Source: an uncultured Crocinitomix sp. (GTDB taxonomy: Bacteria > Bacteroidota > Bacteroidia > Flavobacteriales_D > Crocinitomicaceae). From it: 64,000 nucleotides of DNA. The notes beneath the pieces are model-generated. The model had not been told where the DNA came from and searched no databases. It was given only the letters and a program-made list of their open reading frames with translations. Each line of letters opens with the position of its first letter. Position 1 is the first letter of the stretch. The DNA is taken from NCBI GenBank assembly GCA_905478225.1, contig CAJQHR010000024.1, forward strand, positions 1-64,000, read 5' to 3'. The translations under genes were made by a program, and so were the position numbers. Shown here piece by piece: positions 22,932-25,944 of this stretch.

Positions 22932-23075
22932 AAGTCTACAAGACCAAATGTAGGGATTTAATCTGAATTTTTTCTCAATCGTTTGAAATTAGGGGTTTTA
23001 TCCCATTTCACTTTAATAATACCGAGGTTGGTCGGATGCCCGGAAATAGATTTTAACCCTAAATAGTTACCTTTA

Positions 23076-23657
23076 ATGAAAACTGACATAAAGTATCAGC
23101 TGAAAGATTTAGAAATCATATCGCAAATTAGAAAAGGACGGACAAACAAGGCTATTAAGGTCTTGTATAAAGAGTTTCCGAAAGTGAAAGCTAACATCAT
23201 GTCTAGTGGGGGTGACTCAGAAATAGCGCAGGAAATATTTCATGATAGTTTAATTTTATTAATCGAAAAAGTTTCCGATCCAAAATTTGAATTAACCTCA
23301 AAATTGACAACTTATTTGTACGGAATTGCGCGTTTCATGTGGAAAAATGAAGCACGTAAACGACAAAAAAATCCAGAATTAGAATGGAAAGACACCTTAA
23401 TTCTAACCGCCGACGATTTAGATTATAATTCGGAAAAGGAAGTAGAGTTAAAAATGTTAGAATCGGTTCTATCACAAATTACTGAGCGCTGCAAAAAAGT
23501 GTTTGAGCTCTTTTATTTTAAAAAAGAAAGTATGAAAACAATCGCTGAAAAACTCAAATTTTCGAGTGTAAATTCAGCAAAAACTCAAAAATATAAGTGC
23601 ATGGAAAAAGCCATGTCACTTGCCAAAGATATTAAAACCGCTACCTCAATCAATTAA
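23076..23657 (+). CDS. RNA polymerase sigma-70 family (ECF) factor
   Basis: 193 residues. Region 2 covers about 30-110 (FHDSLILLIEKVSDPKFELT, LTTYLYGIARFMWKNEARKR). Region 4 (about 125-180) contains a helix-turn-helix, ITERCKKVFELFYFKKESM then MKTIAEKLKFSSVNSAKTQK. There is no region 1 or 3, so it is of the ECF type. It directs core polymerase to a small regulon. The gene that follows after 3 bases encodes a membrane protein with an anti-sigma-like N-terminus, its likely antagonist. Confidence 0.9.
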   Translation: MKTDIKYQLKDLEIISQIRKGRTNKAIKVLYKEFPKVKANIMSSGGDSEIAQEIFHDSLILLIEKVSDPKFELTSKLTTYLYGIARFMWKNEARKRQKNPELEWKDTLILTADDLDYNSEKEVELKMLESVLSQITERCKKVFELFYFKKESMKTIAEKLKFSSVNSAKTQKYKCMEKAMSLAKDIKTATSIN

Positions 23658-23660
23658 ATA

Positions 23661-24710
23661 ATGAGATCAGAATTGACCACCTTAGAACAAATTGACATGT
23701 ATTTGTCTGGCAATTTATCGCCAGCCGATCATGCTACTTTTGAAGCTAAAATTAGCGCCGATCCTAGCTTAGAAAGTGCAGTAAATCAGCAACAAGAACT
23801 TATAAAAGCCGTGAACCGAAAGGCCTTACGCGCCCAAATAAATGCAACCGCTGCTGCAGGAGGTGGAGCAAGCGGAATGAGCAATTTATGGATTGGAATA
23901 ACAAGTGTGGTTGGAGTGGGATTATTAACTGCTGGGTTGGTTTATTTTAATATGGATACTGAAACAGTAATGGATGATACGAACTTGGCGATAGAGGATT
24001 CTGAGATTACTGTAATTGATTCAACTATAATTGACTTTGTCCCTGAAGAAGAAACGTTGATTCATGAAGAACCCGAAACGATATTTTCTTCTGTTAACTC
24101 CTACGAAAAACTGGATGAAAATCAAATGAATAATGCTGTAATTCCTTTGCCTCAATGGGAAAATGTAGTTGAAGAAAATGCAACGAATGATGGTGACGCT
24201 TCCAATGAAATTGAGAATAGCGAAAATATAGTTGATAGAAGCGATAGTGATATTATAATTGGTAAGGATCGAACTCGCCGTGCAAGCTATCCAGGCGGTC
24301 ATTACGCAATGGATAAATTTATAGACAAAAATTTACATTATCCTAAATCTGCTCGCAACAAAGGGATAGAAGGTGTGGTGCGCTGTGAATTTTTTGTTAC
24401 GGGGGATGGTTTAATTACTGAAATTGATGCAAAATGTACTAAAATGAGCGAACGTGATGGACCGGCATTTAATGATGTAAAAATGTTGTTGAATAAAAAA
24501 ATCATGAATGCTTTCATTAATAATGCGACACATATTTTGAGAACAATGCCAAATTGGGAACCTGCAAAGAATTCGCAAGGAAATGCCATATTATCTCCCC
24601 AGCGCATGTACTTCAATTATGATTTAGATAAAGGCTGTTTGGTTTATCAATTGGATGATGTACCTTTTGTCCAAAAGGATGGGTTGGACCACGAAAAGGA
24701 AAGGAAGTAA
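23661..24710 (+). CDS. Anti-sigma-like membrane protein with TonB C-terminal domain
   Basis: 349 residues. 1-60: cytoplasmic helical segment (LTTLEQIDMYLSGNLSPADH, FEAKISADPSLESAVNQQQE), with the layout of sigma-binding domains. 75-97: one membrane helix (LWIGITSVVGVGLLTAGLVY). 100-205: acidic, disordered periplasmic linker. 210-322: TonB C-terminal domain (YPGGHYAMDKFIDKNLHYPK, GIEGVVRCEFFVTGDGLI, MPNWEPAKNSQGNA) with a roughly 25-residue insertion near 265-290. It is translationally adjacent to the sigma gene. Likely role: hold the sigma factor and release it on an envelope signal. The TonB fold in place of a FecR-type sensor is unusual. Confidence 0.82.
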   Translation: MRSELTTLEQIDMYLSGNLSPADHATFEAKISADPSLESAVNQQQELIKAVNRKALRAQINATAAAGGGASGMSNLWIGITSVVGVGLLTAGLVYFNMDTETVMDDTNLAIEDSEITVIDSTIIDFVPEEETLIHEEPETIFSSVNSYEKLDENQMNNAVIPLPQWENVVEENATNDGDASNEIENSENIVDRSDSDIIIGKDRTRRASYPGGHYAMDKFIDKNLHYPKSARNKGIEGVVRCEFFVTGDGLITEIDAKCTKMSERDGPAFNDVKMLLNKKIMNAFINNATHILRTMPNWEPAKNSQGNAILSPQRMYFNYDLDKGCLVYQLDDVPFVQKDGLDHEKERK

Positions 24711-24735: not shown

Positions 24736-25944
24736 TTATTTATATAGCCAATAGGTTGGGTTAATATTACTAATCTGTCCGTCGGTTGTGATTTTACGAA
24801 TTTCAAAATGCACTTCTGAATTTCCAGATGAATTAATAAGTAAGGCGCCCATCTCCTGTTTAACGCGAACTTGGTCACCTGTTTTAACATAGGTTTCTTG
24901 TAGGTTAGAATAAATGGTGCGGTAATTTCCATGTGCTATAATTACAGCCTTTCCAGCGCCCGGAATCACAATAACGCTTGTTACTTCGCCCGCATAAACG
25001 GCACGAACGGTCGATCCTTTTACTGTGGTAATGTCAACGCCATTGTTATATGTAAATACATTGACATGCGCAGGATGTGGTTGCTTCCCAAATCCTTTAG
25101 TAATCTCTCCACTTGCAACAGGCCAAGGGAGGCGTCCTTTATTGTCTTCAAAGCCTTTATTGCTTAATTCAATCTCACTGCGTTCGGCAACCGATATGTT
25201 TTTCTTTTTTTCGGCTAAAATTTCTTTGTTAATTGCAGCATTAATTGCGTTTTGAATTTCGCGTGATTTTTTTCGTTGATTCGCTAATTCTTGCTTGAGT
25301 TGGGTCTCTTGACCCTGCATTTCTTTAATGGTTTGCTTCTGGTTTTCACGGTCGCGGACATATCTTTTTTGTTCTTGAGAACTGCGAACTGTAATATCAT
25401 CCTTTTCTCGTTTTTTTGTTTCAAGAATAAGCTGTTGTTGCTTTAATTTTTCAATCAAGGTTTGAATTTTGCTAATTTGGTCAGAGCGGTACTTTGAAAG
25501 CTGCTCCAAATACTCCATACGCTTATTGGCTTGGTTGAAAGATTCAGACGACAGCACAAATAGTAACGAGGCGGTTGAATTTCGCATTTTATAAGCCTTA
25601 ACAATCATCTGCTTGTATTGCTCTTTTTGTTGCCCCACTTCTAATTCTAACTTGGCAATTTCCAAATTAAGTTGAGAAATGTCTGAATCCAGTTTTGACA
25701 TTTGCAATTGTAAATTGTCAAGTAATGCTTGTCGATATTGGATTTTGCGGTCAATTAAGTTGATATTATCTGAGAGGTTTTCGCGACTTTCAGCCGTACT
25801 CTCTAATAACTGTTGAGTCAACCCAATTTTTTTTTCAAGCTCTTGTTGTTGCTTTTTTAAGCGGTCGCTCTCTTTCTCTTGACCAATTGCTGTAAAGGCC
25901 AAAAAACAGAATAATATTGCGATATATTTACTTATTGCACTCAA
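24736..25944 (-). CDS. EnvC-like murein hydrolase activator (degenerate M23)
   Basis: 402 residues from a TTG at 25944. Signal peptide (KYIAILFCFLAFTAIGQ), long coiled coil (about 25-235, heptads in LKKQQQELEKKIGLTQQLLE), then a LytM/M23 domain (about 275-400). Two zinc ligands are lost: NNGVDI has Asn where active enzymes have His, and YSNL has Asn in place of His, while HFEIR keeps one His. This is the pattern of EnvC, which activates amidases and does not cut peptidoglycan itself. It acts in septal wall splitting. Its start overlaps the DUF4292 gene by 17 bases. Confidence 0.9.
   Translation of the reverse strand: MSAISKYIAILFCFLAFTAIGQEKESDRLKKQQQELEKKIGLTQQLLESTAESRENLSDNINLIDRKIQYRQALLDNLQLQMSKLDSDISQLNLEIAKLELEVGQQKEQYKQMIVKAYKMRNSTASLLFVLSSESFNQANKRMEYLEQLSKYRSDQISKIQTLIEKLKQQQLILETKKREKDDITVRSSQEQKRYVRDRENQKQTIKEMQGQETQLKQELANQRKKSREIQNAINAAINKEILAEKKKNISVAERSEIELSNKGFEDNKGRLPWPVASGEITKGFGKQPHPAHVNVFTYNNGVDITTVKGSTVRAVYAGEVTSVIVIPGAGKAVIIAHGNYRTIYSNLQETYVKTGDQVRVKQEMGALLINSSGNSEVHFEIRKITTDGQISNINPTYWLYK

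Follow-up and report, generated by a model that had tools for sequence, protein, structure and literature searches.

A sigma-E-like candidate circuit for envelope and type IX secretion control, with a TonB-ended anti-sigma-like partner, in Crocinitomix

In a 64,000-nucleotide stretch of DNA from an uncultured Crocinitomix sp. (hereafter the window; its assembly is 3.52 Mb and its genus lies within the Crocinitomicaceae, Bacteroidota), a gene for an ECF sigma factor is followed by a gene for a membrane protein that starts like an anti-sigma factor and ends like TonB. What does such a pair sense, and which genes does it control? A sequence-only reading of the locus had proposed that one protein joins the sensing of outer-membrane receptors to sigma release, skipping a separate TonB. 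Its description of the parts holds: three bases separate the sigma ORF (23076-23657) from the partner ORF (23661-24710), and the 349-aa partner has an anti-sigma-like start, one membrane helix, an acidic linker (which we parsed as 113 aa) and a TonB_C domain with a 20-residue insertion. The features of the locus are as follows.

23065..23092, + strand: promoter-like block AGTTACCTTT-N10-GACATAAA, the predicted -35 and -10 boxes of the sigma gene's own promoter (14/14 loci)
23076-23657, + strand: ECF sigma ORF as first read, ATG start, 193 aa
23100..23657, + strand: ECF sigma factor, revised (TIGR02937; start position in orthologues 52-92% identical)
23661..24710, + strand: membrane anti-sigma-like protein with a TonB-type C-terminal domain, 349 aa (Pfam TonB_C, orthologues)
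23661..23840, + strand: predicted cytoplasmic anti-sigma domain, residues 1-60 (orthologue identity, weak NCBIfam matches, low-confidence model)
23886..23954, + strand: membrane helix, residues 76-98 (hydropathy)
23955..24272, + strand: acidic, poorly conserved linker, residues 99-204 (composition, identity 22%)
24273..24653, + strand: TonB-type C-terminal domain, residues 205-331 (TonB_C above cut-off, PDB profile matches, identity 56%)
24429..24488, + strand: insertion, residues 257-276 (alignment with the genome's other TonB_C domains)

The first protein is an ECF sigma factor, scoring 55.8 bits against the NCBIfam sigma70-ECF profile TIGR02937 (cut-off 42.9); the Pfam profiles for region 2 (19.4, cut-off 24) and region 4 (19.4, cut-off 25.7) both remain below cut-off. 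The sequence-only reading had placed the start at ATG 23076. This ATG sits between both boxes of the conserved promoter-like block at 23065-23092, and in the alignment the genus orthologues have TTG, GTG or ATG at the place of the window's CTG 23100-23102. For these two reasons the protein is probably 185 aa long with a CTG start at 23100, instead of 193 aa. As this probable start, where the relatives carry TTG, GTG or ATG, lies close behind the -10 box at 23083, the sigma message may be nearly leaderless.

The partner was identified as TonB-type by several comparisons. It matches Pfam TonB_C at 27.3 bits (cut-off 24.6), over profile positions 2-34 of 79 only; alignment with the TonB_C proteins of the same genome shows the domain to be complete, and 13/13 orthologues match TonB_C at E<=1. 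A PDB search with a profile of the 13 orthologues returned 14 sequences at E<=1, the best at 5.3e-5, and every one of them is a TonB or TonB2 by name, including a TonB-ferredoxin entry. The insertion, judged against the other TonB_C domains of the genome, measures 20 residues in the window protein and 20-23 in the three compared, and it was found by alignment in all 13 orthologues. Hydropathy gives a single hydrophobic segment (best 19-residue mean 2.01, from residue 76; next best 0.99), followed by a linker with 30 D/E and 6 K/R across the 113-aa stretch, whose length ranges from 103 to 153 aa in twelve orthologues (L017 left out). Mean identity to the orthologues is 60% in residues 1-60, 56% in the TonB-type domain and 22% in the linker. 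A structure model from an alignment of three rows reached a mean pLDDT of 45.5 and a pTM of 0.34; Foldseek with this low-confidence query gave no match at E<=0.001, and its six best matches, from E 0.014, are TonB-type C-terminal domains. Model and matches are too weak to serve as proof.

The partner does not appear to take the place of a TonB. The genome's three other TonB_C proteins share an anchor motif (LE..., GL..., AFE) that is absent from the window protein, which speaks against the proposal that a separate TonB is skipped. TonB_C is the partner's sole Pfam match at E<=1 and the FecR domain PF04773 has none; the single PF04773 match in the genome lies at another locus, in a FecR-type pair. 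Because the genome holds three TonB-like proteins with the anchor motif and a separate FecR pair, we do not regard the window protein as a substitute for either TonB or FecR. Tail to tail with the pair, at 24736-25944, lies a gene that by eye is EnvC-like, of peptidoglycan-hydrolase type, as it also does at many, though not all, orthologous loci.

The case that residues 1-60 form an anti-sigma domain is built on the adjoining sigma gene, a low-confidence three-helix model (helices 7-16, 21-33 and 35-65) and profile matches below cut-off. When 25 homologous N-termini were compared with NCBIfam, the most frequent matches were two anti-sigma families, hit by 10 and 7 of them below the cut-offs (best E 6.9e-4 and 2.6e-4); Pfam gave nothing consistent on the same N-termini. 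A PDB search with the N-terminus returned best matches that are unrelated by name, such as the membrane protein 3hug_B at E 0.25. The zinc-type anti-sigma motif Hx3Cx2C is absent, there being no cysteine within residues 1-70 of the window protein.

The two genes are also conserved as neighbours. Among 99 relatives, 13 genomes have a full-length partner orthologue, and in every one the sigma gene lies immediately ahead of it. In a fourteenth, G005, the pair is split over two contigs (sigma gene and N-terminus in L094, C-terminus in L018), and the genes adjoin in 14/14 genomes, from five genera, where both ends are visible. The pair is present in 8/9 genomes of the window's genus and in four other genera of the family; the ninth genus genome, G008, in which no pair was found, is 67% complete. 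Sigma orthologues are 52-92% identical to the window's, and partner orthologues about 30-66%.

In a class-wide search the N-terminal domain was found in at least 96/247 genomes. Among strong loci beyond the family, 17/20 have a sigma gene that shares the C-terminal signature, and in 18/20 the N-domain protein was recognised by its pattern; the N-domain therefore accompanies sigma genes, and the remainder of the protein varies. Within the order, 18/20 hand-picked loci (two of them picked for their TonB matches) have the N-domain. The domain order that had been singled out for a census recurs, with Pfam TonB_C at the C-terminus in 9/10 scanned order loci; the tenth ends in CHU_C, a T9SS signal domain, and of five further order loci scanned with Pfam two have cytochrome c and three have no Pfam domain. 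Beyond the family, TonB_C forms the end of L312 and L316 with scores above cut-off, and of L310 with a score slightly below. These scans therefore make TonB-type ends one recurrent choice among several.

Some of these variants deserve mention in their own right. Cytochrome c, above the Pfam cut-off, precedes the C-terminal part at L055, L056, L042, L046 and L060 in the order and at L310 in the class, and could serve redox or electron-transport sensing by anti-sigma-like proteins. In the window's own genome two other sigma genes, at L062 (C12) and L067 (C6), each precede a gene for a membrane protein that ends in PKD and CHU_C, a T9SS secretion signal; these proteins are possibly anti-sigma factors that read secretion itself. 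At L064 (C31), also in the own genome, a sigma gene is followed by an anti-sigma-like start joined to a PorP/SprF barrel (Pfam 54.3 bits), a fusion like those of the Dma family (see below) with a T9SS barrel. At L050 (G002) a related anti-sigma gene is apparently split, with a 541-aa ORF followed by a TonB-like end in another frame.

To which promoters might the sigma factor bind? Upstream of the sigma genes a single block aligns, RGTTACYTTT-N10-RACATWWA, with constant spacing at 13/13 loci and also present in G005. We scanned genomes for this motif with at most one mismatch, using the reversed pattern as control, and subtracted the self-sites because the motif was derived from sigma promoters and their inclusion would be circular. 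The nine genus genomes have 50 sites vs 13 controls (58 with self-sites) and the six other pair-bearing genomes 34 vs 11 (40 with self-sites); thirteen family genomes with no orthologue have 15 vs 23. Exact sites number 30 in the genus, 15 in the six other pair genomes and 3 in the thirteen genomes with no orthologue, where all three fall in G017. The excess is uneven, with 12 sites in G033 and hardly more sites than controls in G012 (4 vs 3) and G016 (5 vs 4). Across these counts the motif excess tracks the presence of the pair.

We inspected 51/58 sites in the genus and 32/40 in the six other genomes by eye, mostly over the first three ORFs. Of the six sites in the window's genome, five lie before the sigma gene, an OmpA-type gene (OmpA at 88 bits in Pfam, next to a carboxypeptidase-regulatory domain), two genes for secreted proteins of ~210 aa that match no Pfam domain, a row of porP/sprF genes and an unannotated RNA; the sixth is probably a chance match. 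The row reads porP/sprF-porP/sprF-gldK-gldL-gldM-gldN, each gene above its NCBIfam cut-off, and its site has one mismatch. The motif precedes an OmpA-type gene in 6/9 genus genomes (Pfam in the five scanned), porP/sprF in G000, G001, G004, G005 and G006 of the genus and in G030 and G033 (in G016 the porP/sprF site has two mismatches), and the unannotated RNA in 9/9 genus genomes as well as G012, G016, G033 and G048. These predicted targets suggest a role in the envelope and type IX secretion. Against an envelope-only reading of the targets counts G030, in which the second gene after a one-mismatch site, at a distance of 1.1 kb, encodes a TonB-dependent receptor (Pfam Plug, TonB_dep_Rec). In G001, G007 and G003 (L117, L189, L192) motif sites are followed by a long leucine-rich-repeat-like protein and then a second secreted protein. 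Two sites 200 bases apart in G027 (C19:77057 and 77258, L160) have no long ORF behind them, and possibly belong to a different sigma-dependent RNA in a genome where the core RNA is missing.

The RNA locus behind the motif in the window's genome, at G000 C6:88711, has no long ORF. By prediction it has the makings of a small RNA, with its own promoter, a terminator and an unpaired conserved core, and a length of 108-233 nt where a rule-based terminator was found (10/12 copies). None of 9 RNA loci reached the gathering score of any Rfam family, with sub-gathering chance matches only. A model of the first 60 positions is strong in 9/59 genomes, the nine used to build it (one of them G008, the 67% complete genome in which no pair was found), and matches weakly at three places in the 59 genomes (E 0.007-0.024). 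All 13 copies share the core TACCATTT[AT][AT]CG, which in 12 copies is predicted to be unpaired at 0.64-0.89, compared with 0.37-0.44 for the whole RNA. We make no claim on the fold, since consensus pairing in the first 62 columns amounts to no more than 4 pairs, of which one shows a change on both sides.

The complement of the core lies ahead of porP/sprF genes in the T9SS row, some 16-30 bases from the start codon. This short complement is not enriched genome-wide, as GTTAAATGGTA followed by ATG within 30 bases occurs 28 times in the genus genomes vs 35 in controls; 9 of the 28 matches are porP/sprF leaders, with the ATG equally distant in all. Both pairing sides have changed together in two lineages, and one of these changes was predicted beforehand. 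In the g5 genomes the RNA core has ACCATTTATCG in place of ACCATTTAACG; we predicted in advance that their leaders would read ACGATAAATGGTAT, which was confirmed in 3/3. In G005 RNA and leader are both changed at the neighbouring base.

The 12 own RNA-leader duplexes have a mean of -27.3 kcal/mol, which 1 of 20,000 leader reassignments reaches, the relatives not being independent; G008, which has the RNA and in which the second porP/sprF was not found, is excluded from this 12 x 12 test. The leaders of G027 and G030, where the pair is present and the core RNA was not found, average -10.5 and -10.2 against the 12 cores. Among 167 mechanical leaders of the window's genome, that of the first porP/sprF gene pairs best (-19.4; reached by 0 of 500 shuffles), and that of the second pairs poorly, in seventh place (-15.1; reached by 17 of 500). 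Across an ungapped 24-base site in 11 distinct rows, 208/264 cells are paired, which 49 of 5000 shuffles reach, and both-side changes at 7 positions are not significant (993 of 5000 shuffles). The two key columns are paired in 11/11 rows; one compensatory column is T-A in 8 and A-T in 3 of the 11, the other T-A in 10 and A-T in 1. Thus the target leaders show conserved complementarity with co-variation, weak in the second leader of G000, and column-wise co-variation across the whole 24-base site is weak among genomes that are related and not independent. Before the RNA site, a stretch of about TTATTTTAGC..CTTGTTGGAGT is present in the second porP/sprF leaders of all 11 genomes, including those with no RNA (e.g. 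L111, L233, L238).

We consider it likely that the pair runs a sigma-E-like control circuit for the envelope and the T9SS, through an anti-sigma factor that resembles the Dma proteins and has a TonB-type outer end. At rest, residues 1-60 of the partner would keep the ECF sigma factor bound at the inner membrane, and the acidic linker would carry the TonB-type domain across the periplasm to a partner in the outer membrane, the T9SS or the cell wall. An altered contact of this domain, perhaps together with proteolysis, would free the sigma factor to transcribe from the predicted GGTTACYTTT-N10-RACATA promoters. Its regulon would comprise its own gene, the OmpA-type protein, porP/sprF (with gldKLMN in the genus) and the small RNA, which may pair through its exposed core with the porP/sprF leaders of the T9SS operon. 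Because the pairing site lies ~16-30 bases before the start codon, the likeliest effect would be lower translation of porP/sprF, so that the circuit as a whole would raise secretion and wall-linking parts and limit the load of new outer-membrane proteins. Judging from the predicted targets, the signal may lie in the condition of the outer membrane, of its links to the wall or of the T9SS. More tentatively, at a little under an even chance, we propose that this is an undescribed envelope-to-secretion circuit in which a periplasm-spanning anti-sigma factor reads the outer membrane or T9SS via its TonB-type domain, and sigma factor and RNA form an incoherent feed-forward loop on T9SS core genes.

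Other readings of the pair start from the same observations. The TonB-type domain, so classified both by profile and by alignment, might touch TonB-dependent receptors and signal their state to the sigma factor, which would make the partner FecR and TonB in one protein. This was the expectation of the sequence-only reading and the receptor in G030 (Plug and barrel) fits it; however, that receptor is a second gene behind a one-mismatch site, none of the six sites in the window's genome has a receptor as first gene, that genome also encodes TonB-like proteins and a FecR pair apart from the window protein, and Pfam finds no FecR in the partner, so we regard receptor sensing as unlikely. It is less probable still that the 349-aa protein is just another member of the TonB family in the envelope and lies behind a sigma gene by chance, its residues 1-60 not binding sigma. 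The anti-sigma profile matches below curated cut-offs and the empty Pfam result would agree with such an accident; sigma-then-N-domain order in 14 orthologous genomes, and in 17/20 class-wide loci with unrelated C-termini, would not, and it is the N-domain, not the TonB part, that stays constant.

Some other ECF factor, or more than one, might instead use the motif and drive the RNA, with this pair as only one among the readers of a common promoter class. In the genome 18 ECF-type matches were found; seven-odd other ECF factors may share similar promoters, and we count this against our main explanation. An ECF promoter class in F. psychrophilum was considered, in the available part of that report, to be common to several factors (PMC9723704), and G017, which has no orthologue, carries three exact sites, one ~600 bases before a paralogous anti-sigma match. 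Since the motif excess nevertheless tracks the presence of the pair, and the window sigma alone of the 18 has such a partner behind it at the loci seen, we think a shared class quite improbable. A stronger minority case can be made for the same circuit with another sign or use, in which the porP/sprF messages are opened or stabilised by the pairing or themselves soak up the RNA: complementarity is what the comparisons show, and a sigma factor that would activate the same operon fits co-activation as well as a brake. The site's position immediately ahead of the start codon, however, is one at which pairing as a rule blocks ribosomes, and we continue to favour a translational brake within the sigma-E-like circuit.

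It is largely an open question how Bacteroidota monitor the condition of their outer membrane and how they adjust their T9SS level. The pair offers an unusually built candidate sensor, a promoter motif, a checkable list of targets and a small RNA with a testable site, so that envelope sensing and protein export can be tested as one circuit. The sensing principle may moreover be modular, because one sigma/N-domain module is found combined with TonB-type, T9SS-signal and cytochrome c parts, among others.

Several known systems resemble this one in part. Like FecI/FecR, the pair consists of a sigma factor and a membrane anti-sigma-like protein facing the periplasm, but the window partner has no FecR domain, and by eye no receptor gene was seen among the ORFs at 18-30 kb of the window. 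With TonB energy transducers it shares the C-terminal domain, whereas its N-terminus, anchor motif and linker differ and the domain has the 20-residue insertion. In E. coli, sigma-E is an autoregulated envelope sigma factor held by the membrane anti-sigma RseA, and the sigma-dependent small RNAs RybB and MicA pair near the start codons of messages for outer-membrane proteins. The proposed circuit would work in a similar way, although the periplasmic domains are unrelated, the predicted targets are porP/sprF of the T9SS and the phylum is another.

The closest system in build is the Dma family of anti-sigma factors of Bacteroides, which, in the available part of its description, have an N-terminal anti-sigma part, one helix, a long disordered tether and a C-terminal outer-membrane beta-barrel, and are encoded beside an ECF sigma factor of group ECF21 (PMC13088901). 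The window protein likewise has a predicted anti-sigma part, one helix, a long tether and an ECF sigma neighbour; unlike the Dma proteins described there, it ends in TonB_C with no beta-barrel, and the predicted targets of its pair include T9SS genes and a small RNA. In target genes the nearest is PorX/PorY-SigP of P. gingivalis, where an ECF sigma factor acts on T9SS genes including porP, as the window sigma is predicted to do on T9SS genes including porP/sprF (PMC4800418). SigP is fed by a two-component system, the portion of text available to us names no anti-sigma partner for it, and its promoter motif as given there differs from that of the window pair (PMC4800418). In F. psychrophilum, the available part of the report places ECF-type SM6 promoters before the T9SS genes gldN and porU, an ECF/anti-sigma pair and the putative regulatory RNA Rfp11, from which ECF control of T9SS was inferred (PMC9723704). 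The -10 box of SM6 is CGT vs RACATA in the window motif, and that part of the report describes no pairing of Rfp11 with T9SS messages, unlike what we predict for the RNA core of the window's genus (PMC9723704). In the open-licence literature that we searched we found no description of an anti-sigma/TonB_C fusion or of a small RNA that pairs with T9SS messages. ECF control of T9SS is thus known, and what would be new relative to the systems compared here is the TonB-type end of the anti-sigma-like protein and the predicted pairing of an RNA with T9SS messages.
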